Source: an uncultured Elusimicrobia bacterium | GTDB lineage: Bacteria > Elusimicrobiota > Endomicrobiia > Endomicrobiales > CAIRNS01 | Direction: 5' to 3' | DNA length: 39,083 bases | Assembly (NCBI GenBank): GCA_903880015.1 | Contig: CAIRNS010000017.1 | Coordinates: forward strand, 1-39,083 | Shown here: in pieces, positions 1-25,256 of the stretch | How positions within the stretch are numbered: the stretch's first letter is position 1 | Layout of the letters: each line of letters starts with the position of its first letter | The notes under the pieces: generated by a model | Databases searched by the model: none | The model's input: only the letters and a program-made list of their open reading frames with translations | What the model was told of the DNA's origin: nothing | Position numbers and translations under genes: made by a program

Positions 1-394
1 CAGTGCACATCCAACAACCCCGCCCGCGCCCATCGCTCTTCCCTTCGGGGTGACGGTCAGGAATTGGACCCCAAGCTCCGACGGGACGCGGATGTGGGTG
101 ACGGGAAATGACGGCAAGCTATACCTTTTCGACAGTGCACATCCAACAACTCCGCCCGCGCCCTTCGCTCTTCCCTTCGGTGTGACGGTCTGGTATTTGT
201 GGCCTAGCCACGACGGGATGCGGCTGTGGGTGAAGGGAGACGACGGCAATCTATACTGTGTCGACAGTGCACATCCAACAACCCCGCCCGCGCCCATCGC
301 TCTTCCCTCCGGCGTGAAGGACAAGAATTTGACCCCTAGCCCCGACGGGACGCGGCTGTGGGTGTGGGGACAAGACGGCGGGTTGTATGTGGTG
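1..394 (+). repeat. 132-bp in-frame tandem repeats encoding 44-residue propeller-like units
   Basis: The phrase coding for DSAHPTTPPAP begins at -1 (cut by the window edge), 131 and 263, an exact 132-bp period. The part coding for DSAHPTTPPAPxALPxGV is almost identical at the DNA level, while the next stretch (RNWTPSSDGTRMWV, WYLWPSHDGMRLWV, KNLTPSPDGTRLWV) varies. The array continues upstream out of the window and ends near 394. Confidence 0.92.
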
Positions 395-3300
395 AATGCG
401 CCCCACGGCTCGAAAACAGCAATAGCCGAAAAGATCAAAGCGCAGGTGCATACATCGCATGTTTCTGTTTTTGGGGTTCCCGAGATCATCGGAGGTTCAG
501 TCGTCAGCGGGAACGTGCGTCTTGCTCAATCAAACGACACCGAGTACCCCGGTGAGGATTACGAATACGCGCCAAAATCAAGCCCGACGATGAATGGGGT
601 GATACACGAGATACTGCGCGGGATGGGGCTCAAGCGGAACATCTTGCTGGTAGGCCCAGTGGGGACGGGGAAGACCTGGGTGGTAAGAGCGGTGATGCGT
701 TTGTTGAAGAAACGGGTAGAAATGATATCGGTGCACGAGGGGACGACGGAACGGGACCTGACCTGCTGGCCGAAGACGAAACGGGAAGGCGGGGAACTCT
801 CGACGGACTATGAGTTGTCAGCGTTGGCGGTGGCGATGTTGGAAGGGCGGAGCTGTTTGGTGGATGAAGTCAGCCGGGGGGGCACGGGTGTTCTTGCGGT
901 GCTCAACCACGCCCTGCAGTACCGGGAGCTGGTACTGCCGAAGGTAGTGAAGGTGCAGTTGAGCGACGGGAGCTGGTTTGAGGGCGACCGGATAAAAGCG
1001 AAGGAAGGATTTAGCTTATTTATGACGATGAACCCGCCCGGGGGGCGTGTTGAAGTCAACGATATGATGTACGACTTTATGGACCGGATGTACACGATAC
1101 AAGTCGGGTACATGCCTCAAGAGGAGGAAGTTGATTGGCTGATGCGCACCGTGGGGGAAACCAATCCAGCCGTCAGGCAGGAAATAAAAAATCTGGTAAC
1201 CTATGTTGCGCATATGCGTACGACACAAGACAAGAAGCCTTCATTGCGTTCATTGGAGCGGGTAGTACGAGCCATGAAACAGTATCCCGGAATGGACCCC
1301 GTCGTGTTGTTGAACCTTAAAATGGGGCTGGCGCTGTCAGGGAATGCTGTTCGGGAAGGATTTAAAACGGCGCTTGCGTCAAAACGATTTGGCCAGGATA
1401 TACAAACGGTTTGGCGGCAGGTAAAACAGGTTACCGCGGGAGCCGGCGCGTTGGTGATGAATATGGCGATGAATATGGCCTCGGGTATAAGCAGTCAGTG
1501 GGAAGGGCCGTATGATCCAAAAGAGTGGTGGAAGTTCGGCGCGCGACCCCTTTCCATCCAATCACGCGCTCGTCAGCGTCGGACGGTATTAGAACAGGTG
1601 GTACGCATAGTTTCCGGCATCAGTATGCCGTTGAAAGCGTGGTACAAGCTTCCGGGACCGATGGGTGGGATGAAAACCTGGCGGTGTGTGTGGAACACTA
1701 AGGACATGGTCCCGCGAGAGATGAACTTTGTAGCGGAAGATCTTCTGGAACCCAAGACGGAAGAAGGGGTTCTGGGCGTGCTGTACCACGAATTGTTCGA
1801 GCTCATGTATCGTCATCCCGAAGCGACGAGCGCTGAATTCTTAAAAAAGCCGGGCGCTGCGTTGCTTAATAACGGTATTGGGGATTTGTGGATCAACGAG
1901 ATAGGGTCAAAGGAGTTTCCCGGGGCCCGGGGATGGTTGTTAGAATGTTACTACGAGAACTATGCGCCGGATCGTTTTGGGACCATCGAAGAAGGCAGGG
2001 GGGTGATGGAAAAGCAGCCTTTTGCATCGCAATTCGTCTTTGGGTGCATATATGGGTGGGTCTATAACAACATCTATAACAACACTGCCGATCCACTGAT
2101 CACGGATGAAGGGGTTTTGCAGGCGATTGACTCGCTGCGAGAAATAGTGCACGCGGTGTATATGACGATGGATGTTGGGGAACATAAAAAGCTGATGGAA
2201 GAATTATATGAGAGCCCTGAATTCCAAGCGTTGCTTGCGCGGGACAAGGAGAATGAGCAGCAACAAGGGGAGCAGCAACAAGATGAGCAGCAACAACGCG
2301 AAGAACAAAAAAACAAAGGGCAACAAGGCGAAGGGCAACAAGGCGATGGGCAACAAGGCGATGGGCAACAAGGCGATGGGCAACAAGGCGAAGGACAACA
2401 AGGCGAAGGGCAACCAGGTGAAGGTCAACCCGGCGATAAAACGATGCCATCCCTTGATTCCGGAGCACAACATGTTGACGAGAACGGCAACGCATTAACC
2501 CCGGAACAACGTAAAGCAGCTTCAAAAGTAATGAATGAATCGATAAAGAAAGCGGAAGCGGAAGCCAAACGCGCAGCGGAAGAGGAAGAATTAGCGCGGA
2601 TGGAAGAAGCGGCGCGTGGAGCGGAACGCAAAAAAGCTGAACGAGAAAAGGAAGGGATCACTGCGGATGAACAGGGTCAGTATGATGTACGCTATGAACG
2701 GGTAGTTCGTGACATTTCGCGGATGAAGATGGTGTTCCGTCGGTTTTACCAGCAGCAGAAGGGCTATTGGGAGCGGTGGCGGGAACGGGGAATGCTTGAC
2801 GACGCGTCAATACCGCTGATAGTTGCTGGGGAAGACCGTGTATTTAAAAAGCGCAAGGAACCCAAAAAGTACAAGGTGCGTATTTCTTTGTTGGTTGACC
2901 AAAGCGGGAGCATGGGCGGCTACAAAATCAGTGCTGTTGCGGACACGGTATTGATGATGCTTGAATCAATCAAAGATGACCAAAAAAAAGGGGTGCTGGT
3001 CGAGGTTGCAGGATGCTATGATTTGACCCCGGGCGTAAAACAGGATGACCCGCAAGCGCATTATTTCGAGTATGGCGAAAAGATAACCAAACAGCGCATT
3101 ATAGAAGTGTTGTCGGAAACCAAACAGACTTACGGCGGCAATAACGATATCAAAGGTATATTCTGGGCGCTGCGTCGTATCCCGAAACAAGAGAGCAACA
3201 CCTTAAACCTGGTAATCCATTTTTCCGACGGTGATCCCAACTTCCAATTCAGCAGGGACCTATTTAGGAATATGCTGGCAAAGCGCCCGGATGTTATGAC

Positions 3301-6169
3301 GGTCGGTTTGGGGATTGGTCCAGAAGCTGATTTGGTGATGGACCTGTACCCGAAAGGGCAGGGTGCATGGGCGGAACGCACGCGCGATGTGCCGGACAAA
3401 GTGGGTGCGATACTGATGAAGTTTATAGGCCGGCTCGGCCGCAACGGTATGGCAACAACGGAGCGAAAAGGCCGGGAGGATATGCTTGATATGGAAATGA
3501 CGGTGCATGGCAAACCTACCGGTCAGGCGAATTATGCAGCGGCGGAAGGGCTGCGCAACGCGGTTTTGTTTGGCATGGTGCCGTTGGTTGTGCTCGGGTT
3601 TTTGTCCGTGATGATGGCGGGGACCGGCATAGCGATTCCTTTGGCTCTGGCGATACGGGGTATGGGTGCGGTAACGGTATTTTTGTTTGGCAGGGCGGTG
3701 GCGGCGCTTCTTGTAGAGAGCGCCACGGGGTCGCCAGTGATATCGTTTAGAAATGGTAAAGTACATTTTCTGCCGGCAGCTCACGAAGGCGACGGACTTG
3801 CGGGGCCGGCACTGAATGCAGCAGTAGGGTTCGTCGGTCTTATCGCTATCGTGCACGAAAGCGTTCATCAACTCTTGTACTGGCTTGGCGGTCCGCGGCG
3901 CGGATGGTGGCATTCTGAATCGCTGGCGTATGGTCTTGAGGCCGCGGGGTTGGGAATGACAGTAACGCTGGCAATGGGCGGGTTCGGGTGGGTGCCTTTT
4001 GCCGTAGTATATGGCAGTGCGCTGATTGCTGTTATGGCCGGTCAGGTGAACATGCATGCGGTGATTCGCTCAGCGGGATCCTCGGTACGATGGGCGTCGT
4101 TTGTCGGCGCCGGCGCGCATCTGGCAAGATTTTCGGGATTGGGCAAACCAGCGAGCATGGTGCATCGCCTCGCTCCCGAACTGGAAGGGAAACACTATGT
4201 GGTATATGACGCGGATTACGGGTACACGCGCGGGCGGGTACAATCGTTGACGGCAGCGGGCGTAGCAACGATTGGAATTGCGGCGTTGCCGGCGGGATAT
4301 ACGGGTACAGCAATGACCATGAGCGGAAATATCAATGAGGGTGGGATGGGGTTAGGCCGCATTGATGTCAACGGCCGGTTCTGCGATGTGGTGGTTGAAC
4401 GGGTGGGCACGGGCTGGGTGCTTATGTATCATTTTATTGACGGGAACAACGCTGATGAATCCGGTACCGGTGCAGCGGTTATCGGATGGTTACAGGGGAA
4501 CAACCGCGCAGCGGGCCTGCTGGGGATGAAATCTGATGGCAAAGGTTTTGCAGTAGATGTTATCGAGACCAGGGATGTTGCCGGGCTGGGCAGGAACAAT
4601 CAATTTTCGCGGAGCATGGTGGTATACGCCGGCCGCCCGCAGGTGTCAGATGAACGATTTGAAAAAACCTTTGACGGAACGATTGACCCCGAAGCGTCTA
4701 TAGAAACGCAGTTGACGGGCATGGATGGATACTACCAACAAAAACGCATTGAGCGTTTTGCCAAAATCGACCCCGGCGTATTTGAAACCGTTGCTGCGTC
4801 CGGACTGAGCCGTACGGAAGTGCTCAGCAGGATTAGTGTGCACGCCGGTGCGGGCATAGGGACCTTCGTTATAGACGGGATGAATAATACAGACAGTGCG
4901 GCTGTTGTAACGGCCATCAAAAAGGACAAATCATTGTCTGAGGTAAAGATTTTCATACGCTTTGCGGTGAGCACTGCCGGGGAAAGCGCAACCATTGGTA
5001 CCGGAGCGGGGGACCTAGTTCGTGCCGGCGCGGCGGGCATTGTTCTGGATGTCGTTGGTCAATGGGAAGGGCGTGCCGAAGGGGTACAATCAGTGCGCGC
5101 GCGGATGTCGTTGATAAACCCAGCGAGCGCTTTAGTTGTTTTCGGTGATGCATTGCCGGCGTTGGACGGTGTGACTAAAGGTTTACGCTACGCGCCCGGC
5201 ACAGCAATGCCTACAGGGATGAACACATCATGGATTGAGCTTATCGAAAACAGTATTCCGCGCGCGGTTGACGATGGGGCTACCGTGCAGGCATTTGAAC
5301 AGATTATTGGGAACACAGGTGTTGCGATGGTAGGATTCAATGGCGCGCTTCTGCAGGGGCTTGCAGATGAATTGACGGGTACAGCAGGATGGGATGTAGT
5401 GGGCTATATAGAGAATCTATTGACGAAGCGTGCTCAGCAGAAAATGATTGACCCGGCGGTTGCCTACCAAAGCGGTCGGATAGCGGCGTATGGGATTGAT
5501 GTGCGCGAGCTTCCTGTTCTTAACGATAGTGCCATTGCGTTGCTGACAGCAACGGTAAAGAATTATGATGCCACCGGTGATATCGGGAATGTGTTTGCGG
5601 AAGGGTTTATTAATCTTTCTGGCCTGGCAGGGAACTATTTTGGAAAACGGTCGCGTGTAGCAGCGGTGCTGGCAAACGAGCCGGAGCGCCTGGCACAGCG
5701 GCATATGGCGGCAGGTATGGCGCGGGGCCTTTTAGAGCGTCAACGGTCATTGGCAGTTCTCGGCGAACGATACACGCTGATGCCTGCGGCACAACAGAAA
5801 ATGTACGGCTGGAGCATTGTCACCGTAGAAATGCAGTCAAACAAACGGATATCGATGCCAGGCGACGCCACGACAGTCGAGCGGGAACAGGCCTACACCG
5901 CGTACACGGCTTTGCAGATTACAGCAGACGAACAAACACGCAGAGCACTGGCTGATAATGCGGGGCTGAGCGCGCCTGAATGGATTGCAAAATTGTGGGG
6001 TATTGTCGAGACGGCACCCGCGGAGTCACGCCCTGCAGCAATTGTTGAGTTATTAATGATACTGGATATCACCGCTGACACAAGGAACCCGTTGATAAAC
6101 GAGCGCCTCAGAAAGTCCGCCGCTATAATCGCTCCCAGCGTTATTCAATCCATCCTCAGTGCCGCTTAA
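2..6169 (+). CDS. Giant multidomain protein, 5' end outside window: propeller repeats, MoxR-like AAA+ ATPase, VWA, HExxH membrane region
   Basis: The reading frame is open from base 2, so the true start lies upstream; the GTG at 50 is internal to a repeat. Counting that GTG as residue 1, the visible order is: about 115 residues of 44-residue SDGTRxWV-type repeats (beta-propeller-like); an AAA+ module with Walker A GPVGTGKT (202-209), Walker B CLVDE (269-273) and sensor-1 Asn (N328), resembling MoxR/CobS ATPases; a helical region with HELFE (580-584), similar to a metallopeptidase HExxH but lacking the second His; a Q/G/E/D-rich linker (736-797); a VWA domain with MIDAS motif DQSGS (950-954); hydrophobic segments from about 1171 to 1330 containing HESVH (1269-1273); and about 700 C-terminal residues, part of which (about 1558-1800) alternates strands and helices like a barrel. 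AAA+ and VWA proteins of the MoxR/CobS-CobT type usually remodel or insert metals into partners as separate subunits; here they are fused. The actual substrate is unknown. Confidence 0.9.
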   Translation, partial: SAHPTTPPAPIALPFGVTVRNWTPSSDGTRMWVTGNDGKLYLFDSAHPTTPPAPFALPFGVTVWYLWPSHDGMRLWVKGDDGNLYCVDSAHPTTPPAPIALPSGVKDKNLTPSPDGTRLWVWGQDGGLYVVNAPHGSKTAIAEKIKAQVHTSHVSVFGVPEIIGGSVVSGNVRLAQSNDTEYPGEDYEYAPKSSPTMNGVIHEILRGMGLKRNILLVGPVGTGKTWVVRAVMRLLKKRVEMISVHEGTTERDLTCWPKTKREGGELSTDYELSALAVAMLEGRSCLVDEVSRGGTGVLAVLNHALQYRELVLPKVVKVQLSDGSWFEGDRIKAKEGFSLFMTMNPPGGRVEVNDMMYDFMDRMYTIQVGYMPQEEEVDWLMRTVGETNPAVRQEIKNLVTYVAHMRTTQDKKPSLRSLERVVRAMKQYPGMDPVVLLNLKMGLALSGNAVREGFKTALASKRFGQDIQTVWRQVKQVTAGAGALVMNMAMNMASGISSQWEGPYDPKEWWKFGARPLSIQSRARQRRTVLEQVVRIVSGISMPLKAWYKLPGPMGGMKTWRCVWNTKDMVPREMNFVAEDLLEPKTEEGVLGVLYHELFELMYRHPEATSAEFLKKPGAALLNNGIGDLWINEIGSKEFPGARGWLLECYYENYAPDRFGTIEEGRGVMEKQPFASQFVFGCIYGWVYNNIYNNTADPLITDEGVLQAIDSLREIVHAVYMTMDVGEHKKLMEELYESPEFQALLARDKENEQQQGEQQQDEQQQREEQKNKGQQGEGQQGDGQQGDGQQGDGQQGEGQQGEGQPGEGQPGDKTMPSLDSGAQHVDENGNALTPEQRKAASKVMNESIKKAEAEAKRAAEEEELARMEEAARGAERKKAEREKEGITADEQGQYDVRYERVVRDISRMKMVFRRFYQQQKGYWERWRERGMLDDASIPLIVAGEDRVFKKRKEPKKYKVRISLLVDQSGSMGGYKISAVADTVLMMLESIKDDQKKGVLVEVAGCYDLTPGVKQDDPQAHYFEYGEKITKQRIIEVLSETKQTYGGNNDIKGIFWALRRIPKQESNTLNLVIHFSDGDPNFQFSRDLFRNMLAKRPDVMTVGLGIGPEADLVMDLYPKGQGAWAERTRDVPDKVGAILMKFIGRLGRNGMATTERKGREDMLDMEMTVHGKPTGQANYAAAEGLRNAVLFGMVPLVVLGFLSVMMAGTGIAIPLALAIRGMGAVTVFLFGRAVAALLVESATGSPVISFRNGKVHFLPAAHEGDGLAGPALNAAVGFVGLIAIVHESVHQLLYWLGGPRRGWWHSESLAYGLEAAGLGMTVTLAMGGFGWVPFAVVYGSALIAVMAGQVNMHAVIRSAGSSVRWASFVGAGAHLARFSGLGKPASMVHRLAPELEGKHYVVYDADYGYTRGRVQSLTAAGVATIGIAALPAGYTGTAMTMSGNINEGGMGLGRIDVNGRFCDVVVERVGTGWVLMYHFIDGNNADESGTGAAVIGWLQGNNRAAGLLGMKSDGKGFAVDVIETRDVAGLGRNNQFSRSMVVYAGRPQVSDERFEKTFDGTIDPEASIETQLTGMDGYYQQKRIERFAKIDPGVFETVAASGLSRTEVLSRISVHAGAGIGTFVIDGMNNTDSAAVVTAIKKDKSLSEVKIFIRFAVSTAGESATIGTGAGDLVRAGAAGIVLDVVGQWEGRAEGVQSVRARMSLINPASALVVFGDALPALDGVTKGLRYAPGTAMPTGMNTSWIELIENSIPRAVDDGATVQAFEQIIGNTGVAMVGFNGALLQGLADELTGTAGWDVVGYIENLLTKRAQQKMIDPAVAYQSGRIAAYGIDVRELPVLNDSAIALLTATVKNYDATGDIGNVFAEGFINLSGLAGNYFGKRSRVAAVLANEPERLAQRHMAAGMARGLLERQRSLAVLGERYTLMPAAQQKMYGWSIVTVEMQSNKRISMPGDATTVEREQAYTAYTALQITADEQTRRALADNAGLSAPEWIAKLWGIVETAPAESRPAAIVELLMILDITADTRNPLINERLRKSAAIIAPSVIQSILSAA
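2321..2440 (+). repeat. 15-bp coding minisatellite (QQGEG/QQGDG units)
   Basis: Eight consecutive 15-bp units from 2321 encode QQGEG, QQGDG (three times), QQGEG (twice), QPGEG and QPGDK. They sit inside a longer Q/E-rich tract starting at 2255. The tract links the AAA+/helical half of the giant protein to the VWA half, and is probably a flexible, length-variable linker. Confidence 0.93.
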
Positions 6170-17376: not shown

Positions 17377-17425
17377 ATTCATTTAGTCGTCGAGTATGGT
17401 GCTGCGTTTAGGGGACTACATAATC

Positions 17426-18166
17426 GTGGATAGAAAAAACAGTTTTTTGCCTGTTGCCATTGTGATTGTTTCTTTAGGCACGCTGTGTCTGAGCGGCTGT
17501 ATTGCCACATCCAAGGAAATGATTGATTTGCGCGACGATATCGCACAACTTCAGGTGAAGCTTACCGAAGTCCAGAGAAATCAGGCGGACTTGTCGCTTA
17601 AAATGGATACGATGAACGGTTCCATGGGTGTGCTGACTTCGGCGTTGCAGGAAACTCAGAACCACATGTCCCTGCTCAGCCAGCGGCTCGATGATGTTGA
17701 GGCCAATATCAGTCAGCGGGTCGGAAAACTCTCAGATCAGTCAGCACCGCCCAGCGTAGCTTCCCGGATGGGTCTTGAGCCGACTCCTTCAGATCTTTAT
17801 CGAATGGCGTACAGTGATTTTTCCCGTGGTAAATACGATGTGGCCATTACGGGATTTAAATCATATTTGGAAAAATATTCCAAGGGTGAGCTTGCTCCTC
17901 AGGCGCAATATTATCTTGGCGAATCATATTATTCACGCAGTGAATGGCAAAATGCGTTGGATCAGTACGAATGTGTAGAAAAACTATTTCCGCGATCTGA
18001 AGTCGTTTCGCCCACGCGGCTAAAAAAAGCACAGTGCCTCGAATTGCTTGGGAAAAAAGGGGAAAGCGGCGATATGTTTAAATCAATCATCAAAGATTTC
18101 CCCGGTTCCCAGGAAGCAATCATCGCTCAGGAAAAACTGCATCCTGCAAAATCTCCGGCAAAGTAA
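17426..18166 (+). CDS. cpoB: CpoB/YbgF-like lipoprotein: coiled coil plus TPR
   Basis: This protein of about 246 residues has the CpoB/YbgF layout, with an N-terminal coiled coil (IDLRDDIAQLQVKLTEVQRN, then repeated heptads to about 110) and C-terminal TPRs (LYRMAYSDFSRGKYDVAITG, YYLGESYYSRSEWQNAL). In E. coli CpoB tunes Tol function and peptidoglycan synthesis. It carries a lipobox LSGC (Cys25), unlike the soluble periplasmic CpoB of E. coli. GTG 17426 is preferred for its AGGGGAC Shine-Dalgarno and compact signal peptide; ATG 17396 in the same frame is the alternative. Confidence 0.85.
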   Translation: MDRKNSFLPVAIVIVSLGTLCLSGCIATSKEMIDLRDDIAQLQVKLTEVQRNQADLSLKMDTMNGSMGVLTSALQETQNHMSLLSQRLDDVEANISQRVGKLSDQSAPPSVASRMGLEPTPSDLYRMAYSDFSRGKYDVAITGFKSYLEKYSKGELAPQAQYYLGESYYSRSEWQNALDQYECVEKLFPRSEVVSPTRLKKAQCLELLGKKGESGDMFKSIIKDFPGSQEAIIAQEKLHPAKSPAK

Positions 18167-18178
18167 CGCACCCTGTTC

Positions 18179-18790
18179 ATGATAACGCTTCGTCAGACCT
18201 TTATCGTTTCTCTGGGTCTCCATTGCGCTGTTTTTATATTTTCAGCGATCCGCTGGACTTCTCAGCATCATATTACCTTGCCTATCGAAGTAACATTCTA
18301 TTCGCCTCCTCAGCCGGCACCTGCTCATGCGGCCGTTGTTGAGAAGATCATCGAGCCGCCAAAAAAAGACGAAATTGCCGTTTCAAAGAAAAAGCATGCC
18401 CGGACAGAAAAAAAGGTTGTTGCTCCTTCTCCGGCTCCCGCTCAACCGGCGGCGGTAACGCCTCCGTCGGATACTCCGCCGGCGCCTGCCAGCAGGATCA
18501 GTTTGGATACCAAGAATTTTCCGTACGCTTATTACACGAACATGGTCGTTAAGAAAATCAGCCGTTACTGGCAATGGTCAACGGATTTCGGTTCCTTAAA
18601 AACAGTTGTGTATTTTAAAATCGACAAAGACGGCGTGGTGACTGAAGCAATGGTCAGCGACACTTCTGGTGACAGATTGTTTGACCAGCAGGCCGTGCGG
18701 GCTATAAAATTATCGAGCCCGTTCCCGCCCCTGCCCCAGGAATTCCCCGAGCCCGATTTGGGCGTCTATTTTGAGTTTTCGTATCATTGA
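18179..18790 (+). CDS. TonB/TolA-type energy-transducing protein
   Basis: This 203-residue protein has one N-terminal transmembrane segment (about 6-25), a Pro/Lys/Ala-rich periplasmic linker (about 40-105) and a TonB C-terminal domain. That domain includes YYTNMVVKKISRYWQW, VYFKIDKDGVVTEAMV, SGDRLFDQQAVRAIKLSSPF and PEPDLGVYFEF. Its position between cpoB and tolB, with tolQ/tolR downstream, points to the TolA role: linking the TolQR motor to Pal and TolB. By sequence the C-terminal domain is closer to TonB, so service to another receptor cannot be excluded. Confidence 0.85.
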   Translation: MITLRQTFIVSLGLHCAVFIFSAIRWTSQHHITLPIEVTFYSPPQPAPAHAAVVEKIIEPPKKDEIAVSKKKHARTEKKVVAPSPAPAQPAAVTPPSDTPPAPASRISLDTKNFPYAYYTNMVVKKISRYWQWSTDFGSLKTVVYFKIDKDGVVTEAMVSDTSGDRLFDQQAVRAIKLSSPFPPLPQEFPEPDLGVYFEFSYH

Positions 18791-18843
18791 TGTAAACGGA
18801 CATCCGAAGTTAAGCACCGCAGTTTTTGAAGGGATCTGAAACA

Positions 18844-20115
18844 ATGAAAAAAATAGTTTTGATGTGCGCACTTGTCGGATTGATGCCTGCGATGGCGCCG
18901 GCGACGGATGTGTATTTGAGTTTGTCGAGCCATGCGCAACGGAGCGAGCTGGGGGTGGCAGGTTTTGCTCCGGCGACGCCCACGGTGGATGAATCGAAGC
19001 TTTCCCGAGAGATACAGGAAGTGCTTCGGGATGATCTTTTGTTTTCGCGGTATTTTAACATTATAGAAGAAGGGCCGATGTACACCGGCAAAGAAGAGGA
19101 GCTCAAGGATTGGGAAGCGCGCGGAGCGGCCATGGTTGTCAGCGGTTCTTTGAAAGTTTCCGGCGAAGATGTTCGCCTGATCGGTCGTCTGGTAGATATC
19201 GGGTCAAAACGGGTTGTGTGGGAAAAAAAATACGACGGCAATACACTGTCGTTCCGGCAGCTGGCGCACGACATGAACGACGATATTATTCAACGCTTCA
19301 CCGGTGAGCGCGGTATCGCGCATACGAAAATCGTTTTTACCAATGACCAGACGCAGTATAAAGAATTGTATGTGACTGATTATGACGGCCACAATGTGCG
19401 CAAGCTGACCGGTGATTCTACCATCAACATCTTGCCGAAATGGTCGCCGGACGGCACAGAGATATTGTATACCACCTATCTATACGGCAATCCTGATCTA
19501 TTCATGTATTCAGTCACCGGCGCGCGGCGCAAGCCCGTGTCTCAAAGCCAGGGACTCAACTGTGCGGGGATATTTTCTCCTGATGGAGCGCACATCGCGC
19601 TGACCATGTCGCGGGGTGGCAATCCGCACCTTTATATTATAAACCGTGACGGATCGGTGGTAAAAAAATTAACTTCCGGCATATCCAATAACACCAGTCC
19701 GTGTTTTGCGCCTAACGGCAGGGAAATGGTGTTTATTTCCGACCGCTCAGGTAATCCGCAGCTGTATATCATGAGCCTTGACGGCGGCAATGTCCGGCGG
19801 CTTACGGCAGACGGATTTTGTGATTCGCCGGCATGGTCTCCCCGCGGGGATAGAATTGCATTTACCATGCGCCGGGGGAATGGATCAACATTCGATATTT
19901 ATGTCTATGACCTGGGTACGGGGCAAATAACCCGTCTTACGCAGGACGAACGGCATAATGAAAACCCCACATGGTCACCCGACGGCCGATTCATTGTTTT
20001 TTCTACAACCCGGTCCGGCAGAAAAGAACTGTATTTAATCGCTGCCGACGGATCGGGCCTGCGCCGCCTCTGCGAAATGGCGGGATCATCCGCCACCCCC
20101 AGCTGGGGCCCCTGA
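18844..20115 (+). CDS. tolB: Tol-Pal system beta-propeller protein TolB
   Basis: This 423-residue periplasmic protein has a signal peptide ending near MAPA (about residue 20). The N-terminal TolB domain (SREIQEVLRDDLLFSRYFNI, GAAMVVSGSLKVSGEDVRLI, FRQLAHDMNDDIIQRFTGE) is followed by six PD40-type propeller blades with the recurrent WSPDG, FSPDG, FAPNG, WSPRG motifs. TolB binds Pal and TolA during outer-membrane constriction. ATG 18844 is chosen over TTG 18826 because AAGGGA precedes it and the signal peptide then starts MKKIV. Confidence 0.97.
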   Translation: MKKIVLMCALVGLMPAMAPATDVYLSLSSHAQRSELGVAGFAPATPTVDESKLSREIQEVLRDDLLFSRYFNIIEEGPMYTGKEEELKDWEARGAAMVVSGSLKVSGEDVRLIGRLVDIGSKRVVWEKKYDGNTLSFRQLAHDMNDDIIQRFTGERGIAHTKIVFTNDQTQYKELYVTDYDGHNVRKLTGDSTINILPKWSPDGTEILYTTYLYGNPDLFMYSVTGARRKPVSQSQGLNCAGIFSPDGAHIALTMSRGGNPHLYIINRDGSVVKKLTSGISNNTSPCFAPNGREMVFISDRSGNPQLYIMSLDGGNVRRLTADGFCDSPAWSPRGDRIAFTMRRGNGSTFDIYVYDLGTGQITRLTQDERHNENPTWSPDGRFIVFSTTRSGRKELYLIAADGSGLRRLCEMAGSSATPSWGP

Positions 20116-20167
20116 TACAACCCCGTTAACTAATATGCCCACGATTCCGCTTTTTGTTGTGCAGCCG

Positions 20168-20229
20168 CGAAGCTTGCTTCGACGCCGTTATGTGTACGGC
20201 CCTTTAACCCCGGCAGAGCAAGCTCTGCC
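20168..20229. repeat. Two short hairpins in the tolB-TPR intergenic gap
   Basis: CGAAGC-TT-GCTTCG (20168-20181) and GGCAGAGC-AA-GCTCTGCC (20212-20229) are perfect short palindromes in the 202-bp gap 20116-20317. Neither is followed by a T run, so they are not typical terminators; they may be a third family of interspersed palindromes. Confidence 0.6.
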
Positions 20230-20300
20230 GCTAGAGTGATAACCGGCTTCGGCAAAGGTCCTGTTGGGGAGTAAATGCGGGAGACGAAAACGGGTAAATA

Positions 20301-20309
20301 TGGTATAAT
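20301..20309 (+). promoter_or_regulatory. Extended -10 promoter next to the TPR gene start
   Basis: TGGTATAAT is a perfect extended -10 (TGnTATAAT). Its last base is 9 bp before ATG 20318, and no Shine-Dalgarno is present between. Initiation at the usual distance would give an mRNA with a leader of 0-3 bases. Confidence 0.5.
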
Positions 20310-20317
20310 TACACCTC

Positions 20318-23047
20318 ATGAAAAACTGTATTATTGGATTACTTCTTCTTTCAATGTTGCCGTCGTTGTCGCATGCTGATTTTATTGTCGGCGAAAAGTT
20401 GTTCGCGGGGGAAAAATTCCCTGCGGCGATAACGGAATTCCGTTCTACTGCTGTTCATGAGATGGGCACGGTAACAGGCGAAAAAGCACAAATCAGATTG
20501 GCTGACTGCTATTTCGCTATAGGGGATTATGAACAGGCGCAAGCAAATTATCAGCAATTTATTGTTCAATATCCGCAAAGCGAATTCCGCGATGATGTTG
20601 AATTTTTTCTTGCCCGCTCATTATTCCGTCAGCAGAAATACGACGAATCCATCGCCGTATATGAAAATTTCCTGACCACCTATAAAAACAGTTCTTATTA
20701 TCCTGACGCCTGCTATGGCCAAGCGTGTTGTTTGTTCTACCAGGAGAAATATACTGCTGCCTTGTCCCGACTGGGCGTGTTGATCAATTCCTATAAAAAT
20801 CGGACTGATTTGAAAGAAGGGGCGCAGTATTACGCGGGAGAAGCATGGTTCCAGCGCGGCAGTTATGTGGACGCCGGCCGGGAATTCCGGAAGTTTCTCG
20901 TTGAGTATCCCCGCTCGAGCTATGTTCCTTTGGTCCGCTATCGCTTGGCGCAATCGCTGCGTTGCCGGGGAAAAATGAAGGACGCCCGGGAAGAGTTTGA
21001 AATGATCATTGCCGGGTCGGTGCCGGCGGACATGAAAGCACTCACCATTTACGAATTGGCGGAAACATATCTCTTTGAAGGTAATTATAAAGCAGCGGTG
21101 GTTCAGTATCAGGAAATAGTTGCTACAGCCGATGATCCCGATATCGTTGCTCAGTCCTATTTTAATGTCGGCTGGTGCAATCTTATGATGAATGATTTTG
21201 CCCGCGCTCGTCAGTTTTTTGGCGATCTTCCCCGTCGGTATCCCACTGCGGAAATTATCCCTTCAGCAGCGTATTGCGCGGGACTGAGTTGTTATCTCAG
21301 CGGCAGTTATGGCGACACGATTGCCGTTTTCGACCGGTTTGTAAAAAAATACCCCAAGAATCTTTTAGCCGGCGACGCGCTGTATTGGTCTGGCTGGAGC
21401 AAATTCAAGCGCAAAGAAATGCCTGAGGCCTTAAAAGTATTCCAGCAAATTACGCGGAAATTCCCTCAGTCCGATTGTCGTGAAAAGGCTGATTTTATGC
21501 AGGCAGAATGTTATTTCCAGATGGGGGAATTCGATACTGCCCGCAAGTACTACCAGCAGTTTCTCGACCGCTACCCCTCAACAGATTTGTTCGATGATGC
21601 GCTCTATGGTATTGGCCGCTCTTTTGCCGGTCGGGGCGACTTTGGCATGGCGCGGGATGTGTATCAAAAGCTCATCCTAAAGTTTCCGCAAAGCGAATTG
21701 ATATTTGCGGCGCGGATGGATGTGGCTAACAGCTACTTGTTCCAAGGGGAATATGACAAGGCGATAGAACTGTACCGGGCAATGAAGAACAGTCCTGAGG
21801 TTGATTTCCGCATCGGGTTTGCCTACTATAAGAAAAGCGATTATCTCAAAGCTGCCGAAAAGTTTGCCACCGTCAAGGATAAGAACTTTTCCAACCGTGA
21901 TGAAGCGTTGTATTATCTCGGCTGGAGTTATTATAAGCAAAAAAAGTATGACGAAGCCACTACGCAGTTTCAGGCAGTTCTTTCACTCGTGCCTGATTCG
22001 CCGCTGGCCCCGGAATCACATCTGCGGCTTGCGGACATATACTGGGCTCGAAAACAGCTTGCCCTCGCCCAAGAGACCTACCAGGCGGTCATTGACCGCT
22101 ATCCCCGGAGTTCCGTGGCGCCCTATGCATTATACGCGCTCGGGGAGTGCTACAACAAGTCAGGCGCCCAGGATAAGGCATTGTCTGTATGGACAACACT
22201 GGTGGATAAATACCCGCTCTCAAATCTGACTGCCGAAATCAATTTTCAGGTGGCCGAATATTTGTGTACTCAAAAAAATTATCCGTTGGCGCAAAAGGCC
22301 TATCAGGTGCTGCAGAGCAACTATCCGAACTCAGAATTAGCGCGGCGCTCACAGTTCAAACTCGGAGAGATCCAAATGACTCTCGGAAATTTTGTTGCTG
22401 CCACTGATATCTTTCAGGCGATCATCCGCGATAATCCCGCCACCGAGTTTGGCGCTCAGGGCCAGATGAAACTGGCGGAAATAAGCGTGGCGCTTGATAA
22501 ACTGCGCGGGGCAATCGGATTATACCGCAAAGTCGTTGATGATTATCCGTCAACTGCTCAGGCGCCTCAAGCGCAGTTAATGATTGCAAAAATTTGGGAC
22601 AAGCTTCAGGAACATTCGCTTGCACAGAAGGCATACGAAATGGTGCTGACTAAATTCCCCAAGAGTGAACCTGCCGCGCAGACATTGCTTGCGCGCGGTG
22701 TTGATAATGAGACCGGCGGCAGGTATGATGCGGCGATAGATAATTTCCGTCTGGCCGCTGAATCATTTCAGGGTGCGGTATCCGCGGAAGCCCAAAAGCG
22801 ATTGGGTGATATATTCTTTATTCGAAAATTGTATAAGGAAGCCACGGTCGAGTATTTGAAAACAGCCTATTTATTCCGCGACTATCCTGCATTTTCCGCT
22901 GAGGCGCAGTTCCTCGCCGGTAAATCATGCGAGGCCTACAACCAACTGGCGGAAGCCCGTAATGCGTATAAACGCACCATGACTTTTTTCGCAACGACTT
23001 TGTGGGCGGCTGAAGCCGAAAAGCGTTTGGATGAATTGAAAAAATGA
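20318..23047 (+). CDS. Large periplasmic TPR-repeat protein
   Basis: This 909-residue protein has a signal peptide (MKNCIIGLLLLSMLPSLSHA) and then tetratricopeptide repeats over nearly its full length. Typical units are YFAIGDYEQAQANYQQFIVQ, FRQQKYDESIAVYENFL, YFQMGEFDTARKYYQQFLDR and YYKQKKYDEATTQFQAVL, often separated by YP(Q/R/N)S turns. The repeat type resembles CpoB/YbgF and BamD-like envelope TPRs. It lies between tolB and a predicted outer-membrane barrel with which it overlaps by 4 bp (ATGA), so the two are probably made together. A periplasmic scaffold for the Tol machine or the barrel is plausible; no enzymatic motif is visible. Confidence 0.9.
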   Translation: MKNCIIGLLLLSMLPSLSHADFIVGEKLFAGEKFPAAITEFRSTAVHEMGTVTGEKAQIRLADCYFAIGDYEQAQANYQQFIVQYPQSEFRDDVEFFLARSLFRQQKYDESIAVYENFLTTYKNSSYYPDACYGQACCLFYQEKYTAALSRLGVLINSYKNRTDLKEGAQYYAGEAWFQRGSYVDAGREFRKFLVEYPRSSYVPLVRYRLAQSLRCRGKMKDAREEFEMIIAGSVPADMKALTIYELAETYLFEGNYKAAVVQYQEIVATADDPDIVAQSYFNVGWCNLMMNDFARARQFFGDLPRRYPTAEIIPSAAYCAGLSCYLSGSYGDTIAVFDRFVKKYPKNLLAGDALYWSGWSKFKRKEMPEALKVFQQITRKFPQSDCREKADFMQAECYFQMGEFDTARKYYQQFLDRYPSTDLFDDALYGIGRSFAGRGDFGMARDVYQKLILKFPQSELIFAARMDVANSYLFQGEYDKAIELYRAMKNSPEVDFRIGFAYYKKSDYLKAAEKFATVKDKNFSNRDEALYYLGWSYYKQKKYDEATTQFQAVLSLVPDSPLAPESHLRLADIYWARKQLALAQETYQAVIDRYPRSSVAPYALYALGECYNKSGAQDKALSVWTTLVDKYPLSNLTAEINFQVAEYLCTQKNYPLAQKAYQVLQSNYPNSELARRSQFKLGEIQMTLGNFVAATDIFQAIIRDNPATEFGAQGQMKLAEISVALDKLRGAIGLYRKVVDDYPSTAQAPQAQLMIAKIWDKLQEHSLAQKAYEMVLTKFPKSEPAAQTLLARGVDNETGGRYDAAIDNFRLAAESFQGAVSAEAQKRLGDIFFIRKLYKEATVEYLKTAYLFRDYPAFSAEAQFLAGKSCEAYNQLAEARNAYKRTMTFFATTLWAAEAEKRLDELKK

Positions 23048-24507
23048 CCCGCTGCCTGCTGAGATGTCTTTTCTTTGCGGCAGCGAGCATCAGTATCTGC
23101 GGTTTTTTATTCGCCGATGACGATGTGGATCATTTTATTTTGCCAGAAACGCCGCCGACGATAGACCGGCTTAAAAAACCGCCGCTCGATAAACCAACCC
23201 TTAAACGGCAGAACTTTCTGCCGCAAACCGACATCATACTGCCGCCGGTTCTTTTGGGGTATAATTTCTTTCCGTTCTTTTTGCCGGAATATGCGCGAAC
23301 GATTGGTATGGCTGCCGGCAGTTTTTCTTCGCGGATGGGGCAGTTTTCTTATGCTTCGCCCGGCAATGTTACGGTGCAGTACCGGATGTTTCGCAGTGAC
23401 GGGGAATCGCCGGGGTTGTATCAGGAACAACGATTGTTTTCCACAGCGGGCGAACAGTTTTTGCAATCCCCGGTTCGCATCAAGTGGGATGCGCATAGCG
23501 ACGAGAGCGTGGTGTTTGATCAAAATCAAAAACAATATGCACTCACCGCGGGCGTTATCGGATATCCGCAGAAAAATATCCGTCTGGGTGCCGATGCATC
23601 CTATGAAACGGGGCAACTGGGCTTGCACGACAAGAACGAGAATATCCGCGGCGGGATGAGTCTGTTGTGGCAGCCGAAAGAACGGCATTCCGTTGATGTG
23701 TCTGTGACCGGTGAAAGCGATACAGCTTTTAGCGATACGCGGGATTTCACGAGCGCGGAGTTTATCTATACCATTGAACCGTTGACGGCGTTAACCGTAG
23801 GCAGTGGCTGCCGCTATCTCAAGGATGCCGTGTTCCCTTACGGGAATATCACCTGGTTTGCTTTTCACCGTGTCCGTGTGAGTGTTGTTTACCGGCCCGG
23901 ATTCGAAAAATTGTCATGGACAGAAACATATCTGAAGAACCGCTGGTACGCAGCGGCAAACCCCCTGCTGGCGTATCCGGAAAACACTTTTTGTTTGACG
24001 GAAGAAATGGCGTATCATCAGGGTGAGCGAACCGTTATGACGGCAAGATTTACTCAGAAAAAGCAGAAGAATTATCTTTTTTGGGAACAACCCGTCGGAG
24101 CGCTGGTGCTGACACCGGGTAACGGTCCTGAAACAGCTTTGCATGAAGTGTGTTGTGATTTTTCTCATCAGGGCGATATCTTTTTCGGCCGCGCATCCGT
24201 GACCGCCCGTTCGGACAGCAATGCTCCGTTGGTGCCCGAATACCGGAGTACTGCGGAACTGGGATGCACCGTGGCATCATGGACCATAAGCGTGGGATAT
24301 GACTATATCGATTCTCGATTGGTTCGACAAGGATCTTTGGAACGATTGGATGCCCAGGGATCGGTAACCGCAGGAATAAAGAAACGACTGGGCAGTGCAG
24401 AAGCCGCAATTACGGTAGACAACATCACCGGCCAGCGCTTGACGCTTCAACCCGGTTTTGTCCGTGAACAGCCCAGTGTCATCGGCAGCTTAACGGTACA
24501 ATTTTAA
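23044..24507 (+). CDS. Predicted outer-membrane beta-barrel protein, unknown function
   Basis: This 487-residue protein has a signal peptide ending near FLFA (about residue 24) and a Pro-rich stretch (about 33-65, PETPPTIDRLKKPPLDKP). About 400 residues follow with alternating polar/hydrophobic strands and many aromatic residues (VTVQYRMFRSD, IRLGADASYETGQLGL, WTISVGYDYID), ending in a strand with terminal Phe (SLTVQF), the classic Bam-recognised end. No TonB plug domain or named porin motif is recognised. ATGA overlap with the TPR gene implies coupled translation. The assignment rests on strand pattern and C-terminus, not on a recognised family. Confidence 0.75.
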   Translation: MTRCLLRCLFFAAASISICGFLFADDDVDHFILPETPPTIDRLKKPPLDKPTLKRQNFLPQTDIILPPVLLGYNFFPFFLPEYARTIGMAAGSFSSRMGQFSYASPGNVTVQYRMFRSDGESPGLYQEQRLFSTAGEQFLQSPVRIKWDAHSDESVVFDQNQKQYALTAGVIGYPQKNIRLGADASYETGQLGLHDKNENIRGGMSLLWQPKERHSVDVSVTGESDTAFSDTRDFTSAEFIYTIEPLTALTVGSGCRYLKDAVFPYGNITWFAFHRVRVSVVYRPGFEKLSWTETYLKNRWYAAANPLLAYPENTFCLTEEMAYHQGERTVMTARFTQKKQKNYLFWEQPVGALVLTPGNGPETALHEVCCDFSHQGDIFFGRASVTARSDSNAPLVPEYRSTAELGCTVASWTISVGYDYIDSRLVRQGSLERLDAQGSVTAGIKKRLGSAEAAITVDNITGQRLTLQPGFVREQPSVIGSLTVQF

Positions 24508-24560
24508 GGCAAAACCCCCTCAATCCCCCTGTGTCAGAGGGGGGCCAAGGGGGGTTTGAA
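24507..24560. repeat. Diverged family A palindromic repeat before tolQ
   Basis: AAACCCCCT...AATCCCCCTGTGTCAGAGGGG...CCAAGGGGGGTTT forms a nested inverted repeat right after the barrel gene stop. It shares CCCCCTGTGTC with the copies near 6241 and 7171. The remaining gap to 24626 carries only a GGGGGGC ribosome-binding-like site. Confidence 0.7.
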
Positions 24561-24626
24561 GTTTGCAATTACAAGAATTAGAAACAAGCATGTCCAATAA
24601 TACGCCATTAAGCCAGGGGGGCAGTA

Positions 24627-25256
24627 ATGTTTGAAGGGAAAACAGTGTGGCAGATTTTTGCGATGGGCGGATTTTCCATGTACATACTCTTGCTATGCTC
24701 GGTAGTTTCCGTGGGCGTTGCTTTGGAACGGTTATTATCGTATCGTGCGAAGTCGCGTATTGCGGTTCGTACATTCATGGATATGATTACTGAGAATGTT
24801 GAGCGGGGCGATAGTAAAAAAGCGATAGCGTACTGCGAGACGAGCTACACGCCGATAACGGCTGTTGTCCGCGCCGGGCTCAAAAAAAACGGCCATGACG
24901 AGAAAGAGATCACCAGCGCGATGGAGCGGGAGATCATGATCGAGACGGTGAAACTGGAGCACTATACCACCATTATCGGGACGATCGGCAATATCGCGGT
25001 ATATATCGGATTGTTCGGGACCGTTATCGGCATCATCAAATCGTTTCACAATATTTCCGTGCTCGGATCCGGCGGTATAACGGTGGTTATCGGCGGGGTT
25101 GCCGAAGCTCTCATAACGACGGCGAGCGGGTTGTTCGTTGCCATACCCGCCGTAGTCGCTTACAATTATTTCATTCGGCGGGTGGATACCTTTGTCACTG
25201 AAATGGAATACTGTGCGTCCCAGACCCTGGACCTACTGATTTCGCAAAGGAAATAA
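24627..25256 (+). CDS. tolQ: TolQ/ExbB/MotA-family proton channel protein
   Basis: This 209-residue inner-membrane protein has the TolQ/ExbB layout: one N-terminal transmembrane helix (about 11-32), a cytoplasmic loop with LERLLSYRAKSR and AVVRAGLKKNG, and two further helices (about 112-135 and 150-178). The family sequence IGTIGNIAVYIGLFGTVIGIIKSF is split across the second helix, and GVAEALITTASGLFVAIPAVVAYNYF matches the third. It uses the proton gradient with TolR to drive the TolA/TonB arm. Assigned as TolQ from cluster context; ExbB is the alternative name. Confidence 0.93.
   Translation: MFEGKTVWQIFAMGGFSMYILLLCSVVSVGVALERLLSYRAKSRIAVRTFMDMITENVERGDSKKAIAYCETSYTPITAVVRAGLKKNGHDEKEITSAMEREIMIETVKLEHYTTIIGTIGNIAVYIGLFGTVIGIIKSFHNISVLGSGGITVVIGGVAEALITTASGLFVAIPAVVAYNYFIRRVDTFVTEMEYCASQTLDLLISQRK

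Follow-up and report, generated by a model that had tools for sequence, protein, structure and literature searches.

The stretch of DNA analysed here (the window) is the entire contig C17 (CAIRNS010000017.1; 39,083 bp) of an uncultured Elusimicrobia bacterium, whose genome comprises 1.81 Mb in 31 contigs. It starts inside a gene: an open reading frame (ORF) at positions 2-6169 runs for 2055 codons without a stop, is open on the 5' side at the contig edge, and constitutes the 3' end of a longer gene. We consider it rather probable that this gene encodes a single-chain AAA+ ring remodeller working like midasin (Rea1/Mdn1), and that the window holds its C-terminal part. On balance, it also seems likely that prokaryotes evolved, independently of midasin and dynein, a six-AAA+ single-chain ring with a tethered MIDAS (metal ion-dependent adhesion site) domain, built as a trimer of A-B module pairs with GKD in all A sites and with specialised positions, and that Elusimicrobiota relatives keep the pre-fusion state.

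Genome contigs were scanned with the AAA+-to-VWA core of the window protein, and two Elusimicrobia and two Methanosalsum records matched. Methanosalsum natronophilum AME2 has an uninterrupted ORF of 3312 codons, and the second Methanosalsum, a closed single contig of 2,138,444 bp, has one of 3262 codons. Both proteins comprise six Pfam AAA_5 domains (E ~1e-145) and a single C-terminal VWA domain, in the order A1-B1-A2-propeller-B2-A3-B3-HE[IL]FE domain-linker-VWA; in the 3262-residue protein the P-loops are located at 322, 739, 1053, 1770, 2086 and 2390 (first G of the motif).

The modules fall into two types. Between and within the two Methanosalsum species, identity is 43-70% for A-A pairs, 37-65% for B-B pairs and approximately 20-30% for A-B pairs, same-position modules being 56-70% identical between the species. 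The P-loop is GxxGxGKD in type A and GxxGxGK[ST] in type B; the replacement of Ser/Thr by Asp after the P-loop Lys was observed in every A module, in both bacteria and archaea (L072:3775-13560; L060:3710-13645; L057:3-7934; L045:615-3716; and C11, another contig of the window's own genome, L008:1-3552). Arginine-finger motifs are present in all six Methanosalsum modules. In all Methanosalsum copies seen, module B2 has lost both Walker B (IEG) and sensor 1, which suggests a position-specific specialisation.

For the window protein, the first-pass annotation had described one chain with propeller repeats, a MoxR-type AAA+ module and a VWA domain, and this description stands: the ORF is real, the N-terminal array (a 132-bp unit in 2.9 copies at 1-379; Tandem Repeats Finder, TRF) is blade-like, with homologous repeats in the Elusimicrobiota genome G047 scoring 1e-14 with Pfam WD40, and Pfam places AAA_5 at residues 213-363 and VWA at residues 962-1106, the latter slightly below the curated cut-off. 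Walker A (GPVGTGKT, 653-676), Walker B (DE, 854-877), sensor 1 (N, 1019-1045), the MIDAS motif DQSGS (2897-2911) and the Q/G-rich linker, all of them named at first pass, were located in the sequence, as were a DFMDRM arginine-finger motif (1073-1090), sensor 2 (1241-1267) and the VWA motif SDGD (3218-3235). Weak GvpN and CobT matches came on top in the NCBIfam scan of the protein. Since residues 160-1150 have homologues at 54-55% identity in Elusimicrobia and at 36-41% in archaea, the likeness reflects conservation and not chance. A survey of the domain order had been proposed for Omnitrophota and related genomes; the bacterial relatives are Elusimicrobia, and the phylum is Elusimicrobiota, not Omnitrophota.

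One of these relatives, G046, has a contig that reads propeller-B-A-propeller-B-HELFE-linker-VWA-CPBP-like membrane domain, and another contig that stops within A1; because of this B-A-B contig and the separate A1 end, the protein has at least four modules. In G047, A1-propeller is found on one contig and B-VWA on another, and the repeats look partly misassembled; the copy at L045:1-700 and L045:615-3716 has a frame slip and an exact 25-residue duplication, probably from repeat misassembly. Both genomes have a CPBP/Rce1-like membrane domain at the place equivalent to the hydrophobic segments of the window protein.

We propose that A and B modules, alternating on one chain, would close into a ring of fixed order which, where six modules are present, would be a trimer of A-B pairs with the propeller between modules. 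After the last B module come an altered HExxH domain, a flexible linker and a single MIDAS-type VWA, which would grip the client. The VWA of midasin and that of NorQD dock onto the ring, from which they receive force (PMC11603028, PMC13036017); with similar docking, ATP cycling round the ring would pull or twist the VWA-held client, and a complex would be remodelled or dissociated. The Elusimicrobiota form, which carries a signal peptide and membrane segments, would be membrane-tethered, with giant-protein end-pieces added in the window genome; the Methanosalsum form lacks a membrane segment, as neither of its two proteins has a hydrophobic stretch of membrane-spanning length. The earlier suggestion of a membrane-linked single-chain AAA+/VWA remodelling machine is supported, the archaeal homologues having even six AAA+ modules. 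Structure models agree with, without proving, a ring-like arrangement of consecutive modules: for the Methanosalsum B2-A3-B3 model, of moderate quality (predicted local distance difference test, pLDDT, 64; predicted template modelling score 0.43), the top Foldseek matches were whole dynein and Rea1 chains over approximately 940-1170 columns, and in VIA-align two-module fits to dynein covered 504-516 residues at 7-8 Å.

Likeness to midasin could reflect common descent. In phmmer searches with the whole chain, midasin scores 5e-33 vs 2e-8 for NorQ, the midasin value being so low because the modules are summed; per module, the bit scores for midasin and NorQ are 37.4 vs 37.6 (A3) and 28.5 vs 24.7 (B1). 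In the tree, a 96/95 split keeps the midasin modules outside the family, a weak placement given long branches, few rows and inclusion of only part of the midasin modules; grouping midasin with A or with B was disfavoured, with p-values of the approximately unbiased test of 0.019 for a clade of A with midasin and 0.050 for B with midasin. Midasin as a true relative was therefore rejected. As its modules fall outside the family in trees and the per-module scores tie, we prefer independent concatenation, and the ring probably arose independently of midasin.

The same tie bears on a second explanation, namely a fused cofactor- or metal-insertion chaperone of the NorQ/NorD or CobS/CobT kind, whose ring would twist the VWA part and thus open a metalloenzyme. 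The homologue-alignment profile also touches CobT, and the MoxR-clade fold is borne out both by Pfam (AAA_5/AAA_3) and by the single-module structure matches, which are to NorQ/CbbQ (VIA-align Z 19). Nevertheless, neither the window nor the surroundings of the Methanosalsum genes contained recognisable metalloenzyme, cobalamin or nor genes, and we regard this explanation as doubtful. NorQ/NorD, CbbQ/CbbO and CobS/CobT share with the family a MoxR-clade AAA+ and a VWA partner, which in CobT follows a low-complexity linker, but there the AAA+ is a hexamer of a separate small protein and the partner comes from another gene. The first-pass statement that AAA+ and VWA proteins normally act as separate subunits thus holds for the NorQ-type pairs, but not for the window protein, G046 or Methanosalsum; BchD/ChlD also fuse the two. 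The same is true of midasin (PMC11603028).

A conflict or defence machine akin to the MoxR-vWA-beta-propeller ternary systems (Kaur et al. 2020, PMC7159879) is unlikely. MoxR, VWA and propeller are indeed used together in both cases, the bpMoxR Pfam model weakly matches B1 (46 bits), and the distribution of the family is patchy over bacteria and archaea. In the ternary systems, however, the proteins are encoded by separate genes with a single AAA+, MoxR being a gene of its own, and the propeller is C-terminal of the VWA, whereas in the family it lies upstream of and between AAA+ modules. The surroundings of the Methanosalsum genes showed no effector, no TPR partner and no mobile context, and none was recognised in the window. 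A third component with TPR or propeller and a variable N-terminus was not seen among the Methanosalsum neighbours scanned, and the window TPR and TolB genes belong to a Tol-Pal-like locus. PADLOC gave no match for the window protein; its candidate PDC-M37B weakly matches the Methanosalsum protein (L072:3775-13560; 51 bits in three stretches), probably through shared AAA+ similarity.

Three motifs of the HExxH type bear on whether the machine could be an ATP-driven protease, in which HExxH-type domains (HELYH on C11, HELFE in the window) would cut clients fed by the ring. The HExxH is intact in the N-terminal domain of C11 and G047, where it reads HELYH, and in the middle domain of separate-gene relatives (HE[SIV]WH). 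On the other hand, neither Methanosalsum species retains the N-domain motif, and every fused protein has HE[LI]FE at the middle site, with H, E, F and E invariant across the homologue alignment. As for the HESVH motif, from which an HExxH membrane region and coupling to proteolysis had been proposed at first pass, the aligned segment of G046 and G047 has HLGERFH or HLGERVH; the motif is not conserved in homologues, and HESVH as a metalloprotease site was rejected. In the fused machines, neither the HELYH nor the HELFE domain is likely to be proteolytic, and a protease seems quite improbable.

Concerning the missing 5' part, the only other family match in searches of the window's own genome was an ORF of 1184 codons on C11 (L008:1-3552), open at the contig end; the matches on C11 and C17 both sit at contig ends. 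The C11 ORF starts with a signal-like N-terminus, membrane segments and an HExxH domain (VDHELYHWNN), followed by the start of an AAA+ of the other type (GDAGTGKDW); this module, within which the ORF runs off the contig, is an A1 with the A1-specific flank known from G047 and Methanosalsum. One region of the ORF shares 30% identity over 518 aligned columns with the N-terminus of a 9162-residue ORF from a genome of the same order. The last 680 residues of the window protein are homologous to the C-termini of this ORF (G004; 24.5% over 734 columns) and of two other giant ORFs, and match G001 at 25.6% over 742 aligned columns (8e-65). The roughly 700 further residues noted earlier are thus present (approximately 680), and this homology identifies them as a giant-protein end-piece. 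Because both end-pieces match the same giant ORF, C11 and C17 look like two ends of one gene, and the open end of C11 is very probably the 5' part of the window gene. Recovery of the upstream part, suggested at first pass, has accordingly yielded a candidate with N-terminus and A1, but the join is not read through. An abundance of giant proteins in Elusimicrobiota has been noted (PMC11573180); the 9162-codon ORF (G004:C28:98733-126218; L013, L009, L010) contains repeated CPBP-like membrane modules and end-pieces like those of the window gene, but has none of the P-loops of the AAA+ core. That C11 and C17 are unrelated genes, the window protein being an ordinary one-module AAA+-VWA fusion, is very unlikely, for although no contig spans the join, a single G046 contig reads propeller-B-A-propeller-B-VWA, two archaea read all six modules, and C11 terminates in A1 with its characteristic flank.

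Several points weigh against the single-chain ring remodeller itself. Six modules on one chain occur in the two Methanosalsum ORFs, and the window genome shows only two, A1 on C11 and the last B on C17, with no exact end overlap found to join these contigs; Elusimicrobiota contigs are broken in repeats, so that the module count there is only bounded (at least four in G046). Since GKD replaces GK[ST] throughout type A, half of the sites may not hydrolyse ATP normally. The last AAA+ is separated from the VWA by approximately 500 residues, and the approximately 1700-residue stem/middle/top linker of midasin is absent. Structure prediction by segments, proposed at first pass, did match NorQ-like AAA+ and VWA folds (in Foldseek, the AAA+ part matched NorQ and the end matched VWA domains, Rea1-MIDAS among them), but the model of window residues 160-1150 is poor (pLDDT 45) and gives a hint only, and the multi-module fits are loose (root-mean-square deviation 7-18 Å).

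Features of the window gene (positions in the 39,083-bp window).
Feature	Position	Strand	Basis
3' part of the giant gene, 2055 codons, running off the contig start	2..6169	+	ORF reading
Propeller-like blades, about three and nearly identical, in 132-bp units; assembly break here	1..390	+	TRF; homologous repeats in G047
Type B AAA+ module, all motifs intact	485..1480	+	Pfam AAA_5 5e-20; module alignment
Metallopeptidase-like domain, HELFE at 1787-1801	1559..2221	+	Six-protein alignment
Q/G-rich flexible linker, 15-bp repeat	2255..2429	+	TRF
VWA domain	2870..3460	+	Pfam VWA 4e-4; homologue alignment; weak CobT profile match
Hydrophobic segments (residues 1183-1349), probably membrane-spanning; HESVH at 3854-3868 inside	3548..4050	+	Sequence
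C-terminal end-piece, ~680 residues (1379-2055), common to giant Elusimicrobiota proteins	4136..6166	+	Homology

The fused form was observed in three of the 341 Elusimicrobiota genomes (G046, G047 and the window's own), in three of the 186 genomes of the Methanosalsum order and in two of 393 taken from across that phylum. Collections of viruses, phages and plasmids contained only single AAA+ or VWA matches and no further homologue. Other Elusimicrobiota have up to three tandem genes of the type signal peptide-propeller-AAA+, with near-identical AAA+ parts (L056:3743-10384; L077:3566-8281; L051/L083), and a gene of the type HExxH-Q/G linker-VWA, which once directly adjoins the propeller-AAA+ genes; in one genome the AAA+ is already fused to the HExxH-VWA part. 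This separate-gene arrangement resembles a pre-fusion state, and these relatives look like steps before fusion.

Downstream of the giant gene, the window carries ordinary chromosomal genes: LL-diaminopimelate aminotransferase, panB, panC, nadB, uvrA, tolB with TPR genes and tolQ, and further on YebC, ruvB, SpoIID-like, queA and a two-component pair. TolB, YbgF-like TPR and TolQ cluster at 17396-25256, forming a Tol-Pal-like locus at least 11 kb from the giant gene. The Methanosalsum gene has, in both species, a divergent amidohydrolase gene on its upstream side and S-layer (PKD) genes downstream (L060:15500-20444; L072:15388-17865). No gene pointing to a client was found in the window or in the Methanosalsum neighbourhoods.

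Six AAA+ modules forming a ring on one chain are known from dynein and midasin, both eukaryotic (PMC4047620). A literature search, with most subscription papers outside its reach, found no prokaryotic midasin-like six-module protein; as far as it goes, a prokaryotic single-chain six-AAA+ ring would be matched only by these two, and six modules plus a VWA only by midasin, a ribosome-assembly motor that remodels pre-60S particles. Cultivable archaea have a version that lacks membrane segments, so that one can test there what concatenation serves (a fixed order, unequal sites, a single VWA in each ring). The dynein heavy chain likewise carries six tandem AAA+ modules whose ATP sites are unequal, all on one chain, but it has no VWA and possesses an N-terminal linker and a microtubule-binding stalk. 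Midasin is like the family in having six AAA_5-type modules on one chain, some of them degenerate, and a MIDAS-type VWA attached at the C-terminus by a flexible, low-complexity tether, although the window protein has further domains after the VWA. The family differs from it in that two module types alternate strictly, the P-loops of type A are GKD, a propeller is inserted, and an HExxH-like domain stands where midasin has its long stem-middle-top linker.

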